64,000 bases of DNA from Methanobrevibacter sp. TLL-48-HuF1 (GTDB lineage Archaea; Methanobacteriota; Methanobacteria; Methanobacteriales; Methanobacteriaceae). Of the stretch, positions 10,423 to 33,902 are shown in pieces; the stretch's first letter is position 1; each line of letters begins with the position of its first letter. The notes under the pieces were generated by a model that saw nothing but the letters and a program-made list of their open reading frames with translations, searched no databases and was not told the origin of the DNA. The DNA is taken from assembly GCF_023617305.1 (NCBI RefSeq), contig NZ_CP081485.1:1168501-1232500 (forward strand), written 5' to 3'. The position numbers and the translations under genes are program-made.

Positions 10423-10448
10423 ATTAAAGAGCATTTAAACTCTTTAAT
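10423..10448 (-). terminator. Hairpin between convergent trmI and adhesin-like gene
   Basis: ATTAAAGAG (10423-10431, first A at 10423) and CTCTTTAAT (10440-10448) form a 9-bp stem with an 8-base loop. A/T runs flank it on both sides, so it may serve both convergent genes; it touches the stop codon of the minus-strand gene. Confidence 0.55.
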
Positions 10449-12493
10449 TAATCTTTTTCTAAAACAGTAATATTGTATCCCATATCTAATCCGTTAAATG
10501 GGTCATATGCTGTTAAAATATATTCTCCAGGGATTAACCTGATATTTAATGTTGCAATTCCAGATTCATTAGTTAATTTTTTGTAAAATACTCCGTGAAT
10601 ATTGAATGTTATGTTTGTATTGGTTACAGGGTTTCCTTTTTCATCTAAAAGGGTTGCATGAAATTGCGTGTCATTTAAATAAGTTTTTACAATACTTTTA
10701 GCTACTATAGTTGGTAAAACATTAACGTTGTATCCTATATCCAATCCTGTTAATGGGTCAATGCAGGTTAAAATATATGTATTCGGTCTTAAGTTAATAT
10801 TTAATTTAGCTATTCCATTTTTATCAGTCTGTTTAGTGTAGAACACTCCATTAATGTTAAATGTCACATTGGTATTAGCTAGTGGGCTGCCATCTCCTTT
10901 TAGGAATGTGGCATAGAATTGAGTTCCGTTTCTATACATTTTAACAATATTTTTTCCATTAATTGTTGAAAGTACAGTAATATTGTTGGTTATAACATTC
11001 CCAAGGGTGTAAGTTTTCATGGTGTAATTTCCGGGTCTGAGATTAATGGACATTGAAGCGATTCCGTTTTTATCACTGGTTTTAGTGTAATTTTTTCCAT
11101 TGATTTCAAATATCACTTTTGTATTGGCTAATGTTTTAACAGCAAATTGGGAGTCATTTTTATAATATTTTACAAGATTGTTGCTTTCTATTTTGAAGAT
11201 ATCCAATGTGAATTTTTGATTTCCGATACTTGCAGTTATATTGTCTCTATTTTTAGTATCAAAACTTAATTTAGCTATTCCATTTTTCAAATCAATGCTT
11301 TGAGTGTAGTTTAAACTTTCAAAAAGAACTTCTCCGTTTATATTCATATTTTTGGAAGTTGTTGTTTTGGTAAGGTTATTATAGAGATTATTTAAACTTA
11401 CAGTTATGTTTCCTTTTGAATTTTGAACAAGTGTAGAGGGATTGGATGTAATTGTAGCTACTGCCCAGTTACTTAAATTCATTCCAGTTACATTATTTGT
11501 TCCCCACCAGTTGTAGGAAGCATCAATATTTATTCCTTTAACTGTTGAGTTTAAAATATTGTTGTAATTTAGGATTATGTCTCCTTTTTGGTTTTGATTT
11601 TTAATGTCATTGTTTTTAAATACTGAATATGTTATTGTTGTTATTTCTGGAGTTAATTCATTTTGAATATTTATTATAGCTCCTCCGGAATATGCAATGT
11701 TGTTTATAAATTTACAGTTTTCAACAGTTAATGTTGTATAAAAATTGTAAATAGCTCCTCCTTCGTTAGCTCCGTTGTTATCTTCAAATATGGAATTGGT
11801 AATTGTTGCAGGTCCCCAGTTTTTAATAGCTCCTCCTAACTCTCCATGTTTTCCGCAGCTGTTTTTTTGAAAGATTGATGAATCTATTGTTAAAAATCCG
11901 TGGTGATTGTATATTGCTCCGCCACGTGTGGCCTGATTGTTGATGAATGTGGAATTGGTAATTGTTACTTTTCCTGCTTCATTGTGCAGGAATCCCCCCT
12001 GGCTTTCTGCAATGTTATTTTTAAATACTGAATTTTCTACATTTAAAGTTCCAAGATTATTAAATACAACCCCTCCGTAGCCGTTTACTTCACAATTTGA
12101 AAATGTGGAGTTTTTTATAGTGGTTTGTCCGTTATTGTAGATTATGCTTCCACCATCTCCTTTTCCATTTATGAAATTTATTCCAATCAATGTTAATTTT
12201 GCATTTTTGTTAACAGTAAACACTTTATTGTAATTTGCATTGATTGTTACATTTCCACTGTTTTTTGAGGATATGGTTAAATCATGGTTAATGTTAATGT
12301 TATTTTCATTATAGTTTCCAGTTTCTATGTAAATATTGTCTCCGCTTTGGGAATTGCTTACAGCTTCACTAACTGTTGTGTAATCACTTCCATTGCCTCC
12401 AACGTCAATATCTGTTGCACTGGCTGAAGCGATTGTTAGCACAAATAGGAAAACTAGTAAAACTGATATAGCTATTTTATATTGTTTATTCAA
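10448..12493 (-). CDS. Adhesin-like surface protein: beta-helix plus Ig-like repeats
   Basis: Secreted protein of 681 residues. A signal peptide (about 1-26, ending ASASA) is followed by a right-handed beta-helix region (about 30-330) with repeated GGAIYN...NSxFxNN units like Chlamydia Pmp repeats and a YNWWGTN motif. The C-terminal half has three to four Ig-like repeats of about 85 residues sharing the FNINGVFYTK...NGIAKLNINLRPG pattern. These are the hallmarks of the adhesin-like proteins expanded in gut Methanobrevibacter. No membrane anchor, sorting signal or pseudomurein-binding repeat is visible, so attachment is unclear. The role in attachment to cells or glycans is an inference. Confidence 0.88.
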   Translation of the reverse strand: MNKQYKIAISVLLVFLFVLTIASASATDIDVGGNGSDYTTVSEAVSNSQSGDNIYIETGNYNENNININHDLTISSKNSGNVTINANYNKVFTVNKNAKLTLIGINFINGKGDGGSIIYNNGQTTIKNSTFSNCEVNGYGGVVFNNLGTLNVENSVFKNNIAESQGGFLHNEAGKVTITNSTFINNQATRGGAIYNHHGFLTIDSSIFQKNSCGKHGELGGAIKNWGPATITNSIFEDNNGANEGGAIYNFYTTLTVENCKFINNIAYSGGAIINIQNELTPEITTITYSVFKNNDIKNQNQKGDIILNYNNILNSTVKGINIDASYNWWGTNNVTGMNLSNWAVATITSNPSTLVQNSKGNITVSLNNLYNNLTKTTTSKNMNINGEVLFESLNYTQSIDLKNGIAKLSFDTKNRDNITASIGNQKFTLDIFKIESNNLVKYYKNDSQFAVKTLANTKVIFEINGKNYTKTSDKNGIASMSINLRPGNYTMKTYTLGNVITNNITVLSTINGKNIVKMYRNGTQFYATFLKGDGSPLANTNVTFNINGVFYTKQTDKNGIAKLNINLRPNTYILTCIDPLTGLDIGYNVNVLPTIVAKSIVKTYLNDTQFHATLLDEKGNPVTNTNITFNIHGVFYKKLTNESGIATLNIRLIPGEYILTAYDPFNGLDMGYNITVLEKD

Positions 12494-18046: not shown

Positions 18047-21000
18047 TTAATATTTTCCTAATTTTCTAGGAGTGTTGAGAGGATCCCAATATTCTTCATC
18101 AAAATACTGGTAGGTCTCTTCTTTAGTTAATTTTCTCACATTTCCATTGCTTATATATTTCGCTTGGCTGCGGTTTAAGGAATTATCTGGGTTGATATGT
18201 ACTTCAACATAATCTACTTCAGGGGTTCCTTTAGGAATTAAAAACAATTTGGTATCCTGGAAATAACCTGGTCTGCTTGGTGTAAAATGACTGTACCAGT
18301 AATGTGTGTCTTTTTCATCAGCAAAAGTGACTCTGATTTTATTAGCTACTGCTTGAAATGCTACAGCAAAGGTAGCTGGGAATAATACAATTGTTGAAAT
18401 TCCTGAAACAGCTCCTCCAAGAATTTTTAGAGATAAAGCGCCGATATTGTATCCAATTATGGTTGCCGGATGGATATTTTTCATGAAATTATCAATATTT
18501 TTATTTATCTGGAATATTCCATTATCTATAGTTTCCCGGATATTTTTCAACTGTTTAGCTAAACTTTCTTCAAGTAATTTAGGAATTATGCATATTGTAC
18601 ATTCTCCTTTTTCTGTTTTTTGAGTAGCTCCTTTATATGCAAAACCATCATCAACCAAAACAGTCTTGCAAATTCCTGTTGTTGTGTTTATGATAAGTAC
18701 AGATTTGCTCCCATTTTCACAAAATACATATATTGAATCTCCGCGATTAACAAGACTGACTTCTGACTTTAAAAGAGCATTTATCACATCATCAAAAGAG
18801 CTAGTTATGTTATTGTTATAAATAATTCCAATTGGATTCATTACATGCTGTTCTATTTTTGATAAAAATAATGAGGTCATAAAGTTAAATTCAGTTATTT
18901 TACTTGTATTTTTTCCAGTTGCAGACATTCCCATATTTGGATTAGCCATGTGAAGATAAAGTTTGTCATTATCAATTCCGCCTAAAACAACTGCTGTTTT
19001 TGTTCTCTGCCAGTTAAGAGATAAATTTTTAGCATATTTATCTGCATACAAATCGCTTAAATAAGCAGAATTCAGACCAGCTAAAAACATTCCCTGGATA
19101 TGTTTCAATTTATAGCTTGTTAAATAATCAAGTCCAAAAGCTAAGTTTTCTACATCTGTTTGGGTAATTTTAGAGTTAATAATAGCATATGACTGAAGTA
19201 TTTCAAAGTTATTGTTTGTATTATACTTTGGATGAGTTCCGTAAGTTATATTTTCTGTTTTTTCAACTAGATTATTGTTAGTTTTAAATATGGTGCTGAT
19301 TTTTTCATCAGTTATGTATCCAACGATTTTTTCTCTAGCTGTATTTAATGTCACGGTTTCATTGGTTGAGGTGAACTTTATTGGACTTATTTGGTTATTT
19401 GTAAGTTTTATATAATTAGTATTTAATTCAGTTTCGGGATTTAAACCATTAGCTAGTGCTAAATTATATCTGATTCCATATTCGTCAAATCCAGTAGTGT
19501 TAAATAGGAGACTTGCTCTTATTTCACCATTTTCAATGTAACTAATTCTCTCAGCCATTTTTCCCTCTTTATCTATTGTAACTCCAAATTGACTGATGTC
19601 TCTATCAGCAGTATTATAATAACGAATATGTGTGTAATTTTCACTGGAATAAATTAAAAGACCACTATCTTTTTGAATTCTAGTTGTTTTACCTGTTTTA
19701 ATTTTAATTTCATCAAACGGTATGAAAACATATTTGTCATTAATTAAAACACTTGTTTTATTGTCTGTTTTATAGTTTGAAAGTGTGTAATTTTTTAATC
19801 CGTTACTGACTTCAAAAATTTGTTTTTTTGGTAATTTTACAATTCCTTTTTCTCCAGCTTTAACTGTATAATTATTTTCAGCTTCTACTTTAGGAAGGGT
19901 TACATTTACATAATTGGGAATAGCTATTTCATAAGTAAAATCTCTGTTTAAGTTTTTAGATATCTTTGTTGAATTTTCAGGGTGAACAATTATTTTATTT
20001 CCAATTTGAACATTCTTATAATAAGTGGTTATTATGTATTTTCCAGGGTTTAAGTTAATATTTAGAGATGCAATACTGTTTAAATTTGTAGTTTTAGTAT
20101 AGAACACTCCATTTATATTAAATGTAACATTTTCTCCAGATCCTACAGGTTTTCCTTCGTTGGTTGTTACAAATGTTTTAAAAGCACTTCCATCTTTGAA
20201 ATTCATTTCTAAATCACTGGTTTGAATTGTAGGTTTAACAAGTATGCTGTTTGAAACAAAACAATTCCTGTACATTGCTGTTATTATGTAATGGCCGGGA
20301 TTTAAATTAATGTTTAATGATGCATAACCTGTATTATCTGAGGTTTTAGTATAGAATACTCCGTTTATATTAAAAGTCACATTTGAATATCTGGCATAGC
20401 TGCCGTCTAAATTATGTAAGTAAACAGAGTATGCTTTTTTATTTTTGTAGTATTTAGCTAAATCGTAGTTACAGCTAATTGTTGCCAATACTGTTACTTT
20501 ATTGGAGCATTGTTCATTAGTTTTTGGATTATATGAAGTTATAATATATTTTCCGGGGTCTAAATTTATGTTTAATTTAGCTATTCCTTCAGTATTTGTA
20601 GTTTTTTTATAAAATACTCCATTTATGTTAAATGTTATTTCAGTGTTGGTTAGTGGTGTTCCTTTATTGTCAGTAAATCCAACATAGTACTGTGTATCAT
20701 TTTTATGGTATTTAACAAGGTCGTCACCATTTATTGTAGGTTTAATTGTTATTTTGGAAGTTGAAGTTGATGGGTGATAAAAATCACAACCTTCAAATAT
20801 CACTTTTGCCATATACTCTCCGGATTCTAAATTTAGGGATAACATAACCTGACCATTTGAATTGGTAATTTTGGTATAATTAGCTCCATTAATATTAATT
20901 ATAACTTTAGCATTACTTATTGGGTGGTGCATATCGTTATTATTGTCGGTTAATGTTGCTATAAGTTTACTCCCATCTTTATAATGCATTTCAACTGGTG

Positions 21001-21214
21001 GTGAATTAATTACAGTTAATGTTTTAGCCTTGGGTGTGGAAAGTATTTCATTTTGAGGTTCTATATTATTTGTTCCTTGAAATTGGTGTTCATTAGTGTT
21101 TTCTAATTTGCTATTTATTGTTTGAGTTTCATTTTCAATTGTTGTGGCAGAAACAGTGCCTATCAAAAAAATAAATAGGAAAATGAAACTTATCAGGTTT
21201 ATTTTTCTAATCAT
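18047..21214 (-). CDS. Large Ig-repeat surface protein with an unrecognised C-terminal region
   Basis: A 1055-residue secreted protein. Signal peptide about 1-23 (ending TVSA), then four to five Ig-like repeats (about 65-420) sharing the FNINGVFYTK...LNINLxPGKYIITxY pattern with the adhesin-like gene at 10448. Then a strand-rich Thr/Asn region (about 420-620) and a region I do not recognise (about 680-870) containing NPNMGMSATG and MNPIGI. Near 945-990 two hydrophobic stretches could be a membrane hairpin, followed by a polar tail ending RKLGKY. It differs from typical adhesins in this tail. Surface display is likely; function is unknown. Confidence 0.82.
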   Translation of the reverse strand: MIRKINLISFIFLFIFLIGTVSATTIENETQTINSKLENTNEHQFQGTNNIEPQNEILSTPKAKTLTVINSPPVEMHYKDGSKLIATLTDNNNDMHHPISNAKVIININGANYTKITNSNGQVMLSLNLESGEYMAKVIFEGCDFYHPSTSTSKITIKPTINGDDLVKYHKNDTQYYVGFTDNKGTPLTNTEITFNINGVFYKKTTNTEGIAKLNINLDPGKYIITSYNPKTNEQCSNKVTVLATISCNYDLAKYYKNKKAYSVYLHNLDGSYARYSNVTFNINGVFYTKTSDNTGYASLNINLNPGHYIITAMYRNCFVSNSILVKPTIQTSDLEMNFKDGSAFKTFVTTNEGKPVGSGENVTFNINGVFYTKTTNLNSIASLNINLNPGKYIITTYYKNVQIGNKIIVHPENSTKISKNLNRDFTYEIAIPNYVNVTLPKVEAENNYTVKAGEKGIVKLPKKQIFEVSNGLKNYTLSNYKTDNKTSVLINDKYVFIPFDEIKIKTGKTTRIQKDSGLLIYSSENYTHIRYYNTADRDISQFGVTIDKEGKMAERISYIENGEIRASLLFNTTGFDEYGIRYNLALANGLNPETELNTNYIKLTNNQISPIKFTSTNETVTLNTAREKIVGYITDEKISTIFKTNNNLVEKTENITYGTHPKYNTNNNFEILQSYAIINSKITQTDVENLAFGLDYLTSYKLKHIQGMFLAGLNSAYLSDLYADKYAKNLSLNWQRTKTAVVLGGIDNDKLYLHMANPNMGMSATGKNTSKITEFNFMTSLFLSKIEQHVMNPIGIIYNNNITSSFDDVINALLKSEVSLVNRGDSIYVFCENGSKSVLIINTTTGICKTVLVDDGFAYKGATQKTEKGECTICIIPKLLEESLAKQLKNIRETIDNGIFQINKNIDNFMKNIHPATIIGYNIGALSLKILGGAVSGISTIVLFPATFAVAFQAVANKIRVTFADEKDTHYWYSHFTPSRPGYFQDTKLFLIPKGTPEVDYVEVHINPDNSLNRSQAKYISNGNVRKLTKEETYQYFDEEYWDPLNTPRKLGKY

Positions 21215-31702: not shown

Positions 31703-32206
31703 TATTGATTTGATTTTGAAATATTGCTTTCTAAACTTAGGAATACTTTATATACTCCTTGTGATATAGTATATCTTGGAATAAAGTTTTTTTATTTTTT
31801 CTTTGTTCCCTTTCTTAAATAATATTTGAGAAAGTAAAAACATTTTTAAAGTGTTTTAAGTCGGAGAATAGTTTTTTCTGGATAATTTAATTTATCCTAG
31901 TATTTGATATTAAATAATCAAAACAAATTATCTCCTTTTTGATTTGTTAAATCACAAATGAAATTTTGCATGTATTGGTTTCATTTGGAATAAAATGGGA
32001 TTTATAACTTTTTAAGACCTGATTGCTGGGTTTTAAATTATTTTTCTCATTTTATTTAAAAAATATTGTTTTCACTTTAAATTGTTTATGTGCTTTTGTT
32101 TTTTTATAATACTTTTTAATAATTGTTGTATTTGTAAATAGAAAATTTTAAATAAGTTTTAAGTTATATTACTTATTACAAATTAGATTTTATTTAGGTG
32201 AAAATT
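31703..32206. other. AT-rich spacer with a promoter-like box and hairpins, no gene seen
   Basis: About 500 bases without a convincing frame. It holds a promoter-like CTTTATATACT at 31746-31756, a hairpin CTTTCTTAAAT...ATTTGAGAAAG around 31810-31834, and a second, GGATAA/TTATCC, at 31880-31897. A short untranslated RNA is possible, but nothing proves it. Confidence 0.35.
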
Positions 32207-33151
32207 ATGACAACTCAGCATTTCGATAAGTTTTTTAAAGGGCTTGGAATAAGTGATGCTTTTAGTTTAATTAATATGATTCCTTTGAGGATGTTAGATA
32301 TTGATCCAAAACAATTATTAACTCAAATGGTTAATTTTAATCCTACTGAGTTGATGGAAATAGATTTAAAGGCTTATCGTGCAGATTTAATTATGGAATT
32401 GGATCATGTGATTTTAATGTTTGAATTTCAATCGACACCTATCTATTTGGATGATAAACGGCGATTTAATATTTATACTGCAATTAAAGATAGAGCTAGG
32501 TTTGGAGACAAACCAATATATATTATAGTATTTAGTACTGTAGAAGACACTAAAGTAATTGATTATAAAGTAAATCCAGTATCTAGTTTTAAAATATTGG
32601 TAATATCTTTAAAAGATTACAATGCAGGCGAAATTATAAATAATATTGAAATTAAAATAAAAAACAACCAAAAAATAAACCAGAACGAATTAATAAACCT
32701 TGCATTATCACCATTAATGACACTTGATGGCACAATAGCTCAACATTTGGAAAAAACAGTGCAAACACTAAGTAAGCTAAAAAAATCCATTAAAGAGAAT
32801 TCAAAATTTGTATTTACTTTAACTTGGATATTAGTTGACAAATTCATCGAAGATGGAGAAACACGACAAAAATTAAGCAACATATTAAGTGATAACATGA
32901 GATTAATGGAAGAGTTCGGTCAGTCAAAATATGAAGCAGGCGAACAAAAAGGTGAGAAGAGAGGTATTAAGAAAGGTGAGAAGAGAGGTATTAAGAAAGG
33001 TAAAAATATAGGTGAGAAGAGAGGAATTGTGAAGACGAGGCAGGAGATAGCTGTGAATTTATTGAAAGAAGGGTTGCCTTTGGAATTAATTTCGCAAGTA
33101 ACTGATGTGTCTGTAGAAAGATTGGAGCGGTTTAGTAATAATGGAAAATAA
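32207..33151 (+). CDS. Rpn-family PD-(D/E)XK nuclease (RpnL-like)
   Basis: A 314-residue protein of the Rpn (recombination-promoting nuclease / transposase-like PD-(D/E)XK) type. The start ATG at 32207 follows AGGTG at the right spacing; a GTG at 32198 lies inside that site. The nuclease core is seen as D60 in RADLIME, E73 and Q75 in FEFQS, then an Arg/Tyr helix. A Lys/Glu/Gly-rich repeat region (about 245-275) and a small C-terminal domain (about 280-310, NLLKEGLPLELISQVTDVSVERLE) follow. In bacterial Rpn proteins that C-terminal domain, made alone, blocks the nuclease. Accessory, probably mobile or defence-related. Confidence 0.8.
   Translation: MTTQHFDKFFKGLGISDAFSLINMIPLRMLDIDPKQLLTQMVNFNPTELMEIDLKAYRADLIMELDHVILMFEFQSTPIYLDDKRRFNIYTAIKDRARFGDKPIYIIVFSTVEDTKVIDYKVNPVSSFKILVISLKDYNAGEIINNIEIKIKNNQKINQNELINLALSPLMTLDGTIAQHLEKTVQTLSKLKKSIKENSKFVFTLTWILVDKFIEDGETRQKLSNILSDNMRLMEEFGQSKYEAGEQKGEKRGIKKGEKRGIKKGKNIGEKRGIVKTRQEIAVNLLKEGLPLELISQVTDVSVERLERFSNNGK
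32897..33151 (+). CDS. Candidate internal gene: nested C-terminal domain (RpnS-like)
   Basis: The ATG at 32897, in the frame of the nuclease (its Met231, DNMRLMEEFG), is preceded by AAGTGAT at 32887-32893. It would make an 84-residue product with the coil and C-terminal domain. The downstream free-standing copy begins at the homologous Met and also has AAGTGAT (33172-33178). Internal initiation of this domain is known in bacterial Rpn genes; that it occurs here is inference. Confidence 0.45.
   Translation: MRLMEEFGQSKYEAGEQKGEKRGIKKGEKRGIKKGKNIGEKRGIVKTRQEIAVNLLKEGLPLELISQVTDVSVERLERFSNNGK
32951..33028 (+). repeat. 24-bp tandem repeats encoding GEKRGIKK units
   Basis: Two perfect units of 24 bases (32951-32974 and 32975-32998) beginning GGTGAGAAGAGAGG, then a degenerate 12-base piece (32999-33010) and a truncated third unit (33011-33028). 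The downstream copy at 33184 has only one unit. The length is a multiple of three, so slippage would change the coiled repeat without shifting frame. Confidence 0.85.
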
Positions 33152-33183
33152 TGATGTGGATAATTTATCTAAAGTGATGTAAT

Positions 33184-33384
33184 ATGAGTTTGATGGAAGA
33201 GTTCGGTCGGTCAAAATATGAAGCAGGCGAACAAAAAGGTGAGAAAAGAGGAATTGTGAAGGCTAGGCAGGAGATAGCTGAGAATTTATTGAAGGAGGGT
33301 TTGCCTCTGGAGTTAATTTCGCAAGTAACTGATGTGTCTGTGGGAAGATTGGAACTATTGAATTATTGTGAGAAACAAGATTGA
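33184..33384 (+). CDS. Free-standing Rpn C-terminal domain copy 1 (RpnS-like)
   Basis: 66 residues beginning MSLMEEFGRSKYEAGEQ, about 90% identical in DNA to the 3' end of the nuclease gene (from its Met231) but with only one repeat unit. It starts 32 bases after the nuclease stop, with AAGTGAT five to six bases before the ATG. It ends with LSE-type helices and a different tail (NYCEKQD). A recent tandem duplication; if it is made, it would resemble the inhibitory short form of an Rpn protein. Confidence 0.65.
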   Translation: MSLMEEFGRSKYEAGEQKGEKRGIVKARQEIAENLLKEGLPLELISQVTDVSVGRLELLNYCEKQD

Positions 33385-33450
33385 TGATTTAAATAGCTAA
33401 AAGAGAAATTATTGCTAAAAATAAAACATATCTATAAATCAGGTGTTAAT

Positions 33451-33648
33451 ATGGTTACTGTAGAGGAATTTGGTAAGGAAAAATATGAAGAAGGGTTTAG
33501 AAAAGGAATGTGGAAAGGAATTAAGGAAACAAAATTTGAAATAGCTAAAAAGTTAATAATAAAGGATGTTAGTTTGTATAACATTTCTTATGCCTGTGAT
33601 ATTGGTATGGCTACCTTAGGTGAATTAAAAGAATCATTGAAAAAATGA
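33451..33648 (+). CDS. Free-standing Rpn C-terminal domain copy 2, diverged
   Basis: About 65 residues beginning MVTVEEFGKEKYEEGFRKG and ending LGELKESLKK. AGGTG at 33441 precedes the ATG at 33451 at a good spacing; the frame is open further upstream to 33412 but that region has no such site. It aligns over its whole length with copy 1 (EEFG-K-KYE-G, then KETKFEIAKKL..., then a helix resembling the LISQVTDVSV helix) while being far more diverged. Ends in a hairpin containing its stop codon followed by T-runs. Confidence 0.6.
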   Translation: MVTVEEFGKEKYEEGFRKGMWKGIKETKFEIAKKLIIKDVSLYNISYACDIGMATLGELKESLKK

Positions 33649-33651
33649 TTC
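33631..33651 (+). terminator. Terminator hairpin containing the stop codon (Rpn copy 2)
   Basis: GAATCAT (33631-33637) and ATGATTC (33645-33651), 7 bp with a 7-base loop; the TGA (33646-33648) sits in the right arm. GTTTTTATTTTTTT follows. Confidence 0.65.
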
Positions 33652-33828
33652 GTTTTTATTTTTTTATAAATGAAATATTATTTTTTTTAAATTAGAATAG
33701 GGGTTTAAATCAATAAATTATATTTTGTTTTTTTGTAAAGCTTTTTAATCAAATAAAATTCTTAAATAAAACAGTGCTTTTAAATACTATTAAAATCATA
33801 ATATTGACTGATAACTATTTTTAATGTC

Positions 33829-33902
33829 GCCCCGATGGTGTAGTTTGGATAACACATAGGACTGCGGATCCTATTCCCCGGGTTCAAATCCCGGTCGGGG
33901 CA
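33829..33902 (+). tRNA. tRNA-Arg (GCG)
   Basis: GCCCCGA (33829-33835) pairs with TCGGGGC (33895-33901), and A at 33902 is the discriminator; CCA is not encoded. The anticodon stem TAGGA/TCCTA carries loop CTGCGGA with anticodon GCG, reading CGC/CGU. D-arm and T-arm (CCGGG TTCAAAT CCCGG) are regular. 74 bases, no intron. Confidence 0.95.

Follow-up and report, generated by a model that had tools for sequence, protein, structure and literature searches.

The closest described systems are the RpnL/RpnS toxin-antitoxin systems of E. coli (Zhong et al. 2023, PMC10327210); C. difficile provides a further precedent (PMC10327210). In E. coli RpnA-E and RpnP2, a PD-(D/E)XK N-domain is followed by a C-domain that has an internal start and carries variable four-residue units; the product of that start, RpnS, is a three-helix bundle that dimerises through helix 1 and neutralises the toxic RpnL, and the gene clusters are gained and lost as units (PMC10327210). 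In RpnC, adding a single unit to either partner is enough to destroy neutralisation, a rule tested for RpnC only (PMC10327210). The rpn genes have already been reported in two archaeal phyla, and free-standing rpnS genes downstream of rpn are known in E. coli, for example ypaA beside rpnE (PMC10327210). NCBI and RefSeq label K-12 RpnE inactive and ypaA a pseudogene; the YpaA (RpnE-S) protein has been detected (PMC10327210).

We analysed a window of 64,000 nucleotides (the whole stretch of DNA considered here, G000:C1:1168501-1232500) from Methanobrevibacter sp. TLL-48-HuF1, a gut methanogen, and found in it an archaeal locus of this kind, with a nuclease gene of the type associated with phage defence. 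It shares with the E. coli systems the PD-(D/E)XK N-domain, the C-domain with a predicted internal start and variable four-residue units, and the gain or loss of the gene cluster as a unit; its RpnS is predicted to have three helices. As in rpnE-ypaA (rpnE-S) and rpnC-rpnC-S, free-standing RpnS genes, which we call solos, stand directly downstream and were copied from their own parent. Unlike those pairs, the window locus has two solos of different age, the first of them five units off. Unlike E. coli RpnL/RpnS, the system is archaeal and diverged, has no Pfam match and scores under the cut-off of TIGR01784, and we found no experiment on it in archaea. The earlier note had described an archaeal version in which extra genes also supply the inhibitor domain. 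That anatomy stands, but neither the archaeal host nor the extra genes make the arrangement new, since archaeal rpn and free-standing E. coli rpnS were both on record (PMC10327210). We consider it probable that this is an archaeal RpnL/RpnS toxin-antitoxin locus in which the nested RpnS is the partner of the nuclease, and the solos are most likely off-register variants and not plain extra doses.

The gene for RpnL, a predicted Rpn-family PD-(D/E)XK nuclease of 314 aa, lies on the + strand at 32207..33151 (ATG at 32207, stop at 33149-33151), with an SD, AGGTGA, at 32196..32201, 5 nt upstream of the ATG. Its putative active-site codons, D60 (32384), E73 (32423) and Q75 (32429), fall within 32384..32431 and were assigned from conservation and from alignment with E. 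coli RpnE. All of 41 archaeal RpnL of Methanobrevibacter carry E48, D60, E73 and K150, and at least 90% of them also keep Q75. The pattern, D-x12-E-x-Q, is in register with D...IEHQSS of E. coli RpnE. Alignment of the N-domain alone with RpnE (hhalign) is also in register, with a score no better than that of shuffled or unrelated controls.

Profile searches place RpnL in the same family. TIGR01784 (NCBIfam; Rpn family recombination-promoting nuclease/putative transposase) matches the window RpnL with an E-value of 5.6e-8, over positions 153-273 of the model and residues 173-309 of the protein, at 32.9 bits against a curated cut-off of 52.1 bits. In the three window proteins it is the C-terminal end of the family that is matched; in close relatives it is the full length. 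L041, which shares 45% of its residues with the window RpnL, covers 3-273 of 273 (E 1.3e-9), and L110, L104 and L118 give full-length matches like it, all four under the curated cut-off. A profile of RpnL retrieves the E. coli RpnA-S structure 7th0 from the PDB. Pfam and PADLOC returned no nuclease family for the three window proteins or the 41 RpnL, and a search of the locus's own genome with PF12784 gave no match, its controls being equally silent. The AlphaFold model of RpnL (pLDDT 59, from a six-sequence alignment) returned nothing convincing in Foldseek. No relative was found in IMG/VR viral contigs; in GTDB contigs a single-protein query found nothing, and a small-alignment query found two Methanobrevibacter MAG loci. 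By sequence comparison, assignment of RpnL to the Rpn family (TIGR01784/COG5464) is well supported and all but certain.

A second reading frame is nested in the 3' part of this gene. An in-frame ATG at 32897, preceded within the RpnL frame by the SD AAGTGAT (32887..32893, + strand), opens a frame of 84 aa (32897..33151, + strand) that we predict to be translated separately as the C-terminal domain, RpnS. It includes, at 32951..33028 (+ strand), a run of tandem 12-nt units (GEKRGIKKGEKRGIKKGKNIGEKRGI; repeat family D3 in the repeat analysis), each encoding four residues, which read GEKRGIKK... in the RpnL tail.

Evidence that the internal start is used comes from comparison across the genus. 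From Methanobrevibacter loci we assembled a set of 108 RpnL genes, all unique, complete and at least 230 aa long, and chose the Met nearest the C-domain boundary in the alignment, blind to any SD. An SD match of at least 4 precedes this Met in 95% of 103 RpnL, compared with 27% of 353 control Mets in the N-domain (p 5e-40); the mean match is 5.08 at the internal Met and 2.65 at the N-domain Mets. Codon choice at the internal SD position is skewed as well: Glu is encoded by GAG in 53% of cases (16% elsewhere), Gly by GGT in 74% (28% elsewhere) and Lys by AAG in 60% (18% elsewhere). Such a synonymous bias indicates that the DNA has been kept for a ribosome site, beyond what the amino acids alone would explain. 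The usual archaeal 16S 3' end (GGATCACCTCC) was not found in the G000 assembly, where it is perhaps masked, and we therefore calibrated SD use empirically within the window. Among its long ORFs (n=43), an SD match of at least 4 stands before 72% of first ATGs and 29% of internal ones; just 5% of internal ATGs follow a match of at least 5, as the one at 32897 does. Judged by these matches and codons, the SD of the internal start in Methanobrevibacter RpnL equals that of real starts in strength and is under genus-wide selection. Translation initiation at 32897 is very likely on this evidence and, by homology with the described systems, the nested product likely acts as an antitoxin. The identification of an Rpn gene with a nested C-terminal product, made in the earlier note, is thus well supported by TIGR01784 (via L041), the D-x12-E-x-Q pattern, the four-residue repeats and the selection on the internal SD; all of its coordinates were confirmed, including that of the in-frame ATG behind AAGTGAT.

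The two solos follow on the same strand. Solo 1 (33184..33384, 66 aa) repeats the AAGTGAT motif (33172..33178) and is a recent copy of the RpnL tail minus five four-residue units. The DNA identity of about 90% claimed for this copy holds over the first 81 nt and is 82% over a 154-nt 3' block. The offset between RpnL tail and copy is 287 nt at first and then shrinks to 227 nt, as solo 1 is without 60 nt, equal to five units of the RpnL tail, a feature absent from the earlier note. Solo 2 (33451..33648, 65 aa) has its own SD, AGGTG, at 33441..33445 and is, as had been proposed, a diverged copy. It is 63% identical to the RpnL 3' part over 81 nt of DNA and 38% identical to the nested domain in amino acids; its nearest relative is the solo at G000:C1:1096 kb (62%).

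RpnL and both solos match the same, C-terminal, end of TIGR01784, and the nested RpnS and solo 1 differ with a dS of 0.35 and a dN of 0.04 (dN/dS 0.11, only 15 codons differing), so that the likeness of the three copies is not due to chance. Solo 1 is modelled with three helices, and E. coli RpnA-S (7th0) is among the Foldseek matches of this model, with an E-value of 2.1 and a TM of 0.74 over the target. The intergenic gaps, 32 nt between RpnL and solo 1 and 66 nt between the solos, are compatible with a single operon, which the three genes probably share.

These genes come or go together. They lie in a presence/absence cassette of about 2.06-2.07 kb (31705..33775, edges approximate) that is absent from the sister-species genome G006, and the outgroup G002 has little sequence between the same flanking genes. 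BLASTN of the window to L170 gives 92-94% identity for the flanks in G006, where window positions 31705 and 33764 join within 8 bp. No transposon ends were found round the cassette, only AT-rich imperfect inverted repeats. A decayed sister locus, L043:3149-3940 (G000:C1:1096 kb, - strand), is absent from G006 too. This locus has no nuclease front, and what is left of the nuclease gene is interrupted; the downstream relative of solo 2 carries one TGA, but the nested RpnS frame and its AAGTGATAATATG (AAGTGAT SD) are intact. Because this locus has a solo 2 relative, the pairing of RpnL with solo 2 predates the split of the two loci. On these sequence relationships, solo 2 is the older copy, and solo 1 was derived later from the tail of the resident RpnL. 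The two solo 2 sequences differ with a pN of 0.21 at a saturated pS of 0.81, which argues that solo 2 evolved as a protein gene.

Solos recur throughout Methanobrevibacter, as the earlier note had thought worth surveying. An ORF search found at least one stand-alone C-domain ORF at 36 of 108 RpnL loci, always downstream and on the same strand; a stricter, unselected count, which omits fragments and loci fetched via a solo match, gives 30 of 101. Two solo matches are present at six loci besides the window, one of the six including a 15-residue fragment. Nearly all solo copies are intact even by tblastn, for which an open frame is not required (the interrupted ones are L111 and a second fragment at L135), and the copies typically begin at the internal Met. 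Since 36 of 43 solos are most similar to the neighbouring RpnL, it follows that solos form locally and repeatedly.

Individual loci show the range of these histories. Beside uvrB, L045:2294-3584 (G000:C1:1871 kb, - strand) has an RpnL followed directly by a solo of 97 aa that is 91% identical, and the matching G006 locus holds an RpnL remnant with internal stop codons. L044 (G000) and L049 (G006) are orthologous RpnL loci of sister species with a solo RpnS in G006 alone; the difference is a recent gain or loss of the solo. At the orthologous loci L016 and L017, which belong to two species, the parents differ in unit number and the solos share one number; it would seem that the solo has been there longer, and has changed less, than the RpnL tail.

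What, then, are the solos? They might be functionless by-products of recombination between the tandem 12-nt repeats, often born and only briefly intact. We think this unlikely on balance, yet it is a serious rival. The closeness of 36 of 43 solos to their own parents, some of them near-identical (L083, L048 and L013), would be expected, as would gain and loss between orthologous loci (L044 and L049) and the TGA now held by the sister-locus solo 2. However, tblastn shows almost no interrupted copies, and the copies typically start at the internal Met. Selection also points the other way: the dN/dS of 0.11 for solo 1 does not sit easily with neutrality of the copy, though few codons differ, and the low pN of solo 2 at saturated pS adds to this. 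Both lie below the value of about 0.5 expected with one neutral copy; the pooled solo-parent dN/dS of 0.40 is only modestly below it.

A second possibility is that the solos supply additional working antitoxin as a buffer against RpnL. In 31 of 36 solo-parent pairs (at least 70% identity) the repeat regions differ in length, nearly always by multiples of four; among the aligned pairs the solo is shorter in 26 and longer in 10. Solos are not specially mismatched to their parents, an idea we ruled out: RpnL orthologues differ in unit number equally often (75 of 95 compared with 31 of 36, p 0.46). There is consequently no sign of selection for matching, nor for mismatch, and the mismatch of solos may be mere lability of the repeats. 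If the RpnC rule holds in archaea, neither window solo would be a good antitoxin for the adjoining RpnL, and the nested product would be the real partner. Extra doses would suit the intact frames of the solos, their start sites and the purifying selection acting on them, as well as the production of E. coli YpaA (PMC10327210). But the solos match their parents no better than RpnL orthologues match one another, E. coli RpnE and YpaA are likewise one unit apart (YpaA is longer than the RpnE tail by one unit, KLEG; L169:905-2002, K-12), and in RpnC a difference of that size sufficed to abolish neutralisation (PMC10327210). An extra dose of antitoxin is thus not the best reading of the solos, and we regard it as improbable. 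The earlier suggestion that extra genes buffer or diversify the inhibitor is weakened in its first half by unit mismatch and the RpnC precedent; its second half fits the data better.

We prefer to see the solos as off-register modulators or neutralisers of variants, and rank this above a plain buffer. One gene would yield both the full-length RpnL nuclease and, from the internal ATG with its own SD, the three-helix RpnS domain. RpnS would pair with the same domain of RpnL and hold the nuclease inactive. As the two share one DNA, their unit numbers are always equal. Solo 2 would have accompanied the nuclease lineage before the paralogous loci separated, and solo 1 would have been copied later from the RpnL tail. 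Having fewer units than the nested form, the solos are most likely off-register RpnS variants; kept as proteins, they may modulate the nuclease or neutralise its other versions. The sequence shows the anatomy, the homology, SD selection, recurrence, cassette behaviour and repeat mismatch; what we infer for the window locus is that it is expressed, that RpnL is toxic and is inhibited, that the system acts in defence, and what the solos do.

A more specific proposal, which we hold to be quite unlikely, is that the solos form small arrays of off-register antitoxin variants beside the nuclease. These would neutralise RpnL versions other than the present one (newcomers, those of sister strains or former residents), or serve as a template bank from which recombination re-sets the unit number of the RpnL tail. 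In either case the nested product alone would answer the resident nuclease. Finally, the old family name, the resemblance of the C-domain to HTH domains (resolvase HTH matches) and the presence/absence cassette would suit a DNA-mobilising, recombination-promoting nuclease whose C-domain is just a dimerisation or DNA-binding part, with no product from 32897, but this is very improbable given the genus-wide selection on the SD and on the synonymous codons of the internal start, the stand-alone copies that begin at that Met, the sister locus that retains only the nested frame intact, and the E. coli and C. difficile precedents (PMC10327210).

The literature that we searched yielded no data on the expression, toxicity or defensive action of any archaeal Rpn, and no description of comparative evidence for an archaeal internal start, of the frequency of solos in Methanobrevibacter or of a general unit mismatch. 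The comparative evidence carries the idea of intragenic antitoxins over to archaea: synonymous codons in more than 100 genes reveal selection on the internal start. Stand-alone antitoxin copies are common in Methanobrevibacter (about 30% of loci) and usually unmatched in length to their neighbour. This length mismatch offers a concrete and cheap test of why rpnS multiplies in both domains, whether as redundant buffer, variant immunity or by-product.

The surroundings of the locus in the window are housekeeping genes, not a defence island. The cassette lies just upstream of a tRNA-Arg (GCG) gene (33829-33902), about 50 bp past its right edge, a possible integration hot spot. Elsewhere in the window, two large proteins that resemble adhesins and contain repeated segments of the FNINGVFYTK type are encoded at 10448-12493 and 18047-21214 (- strand).
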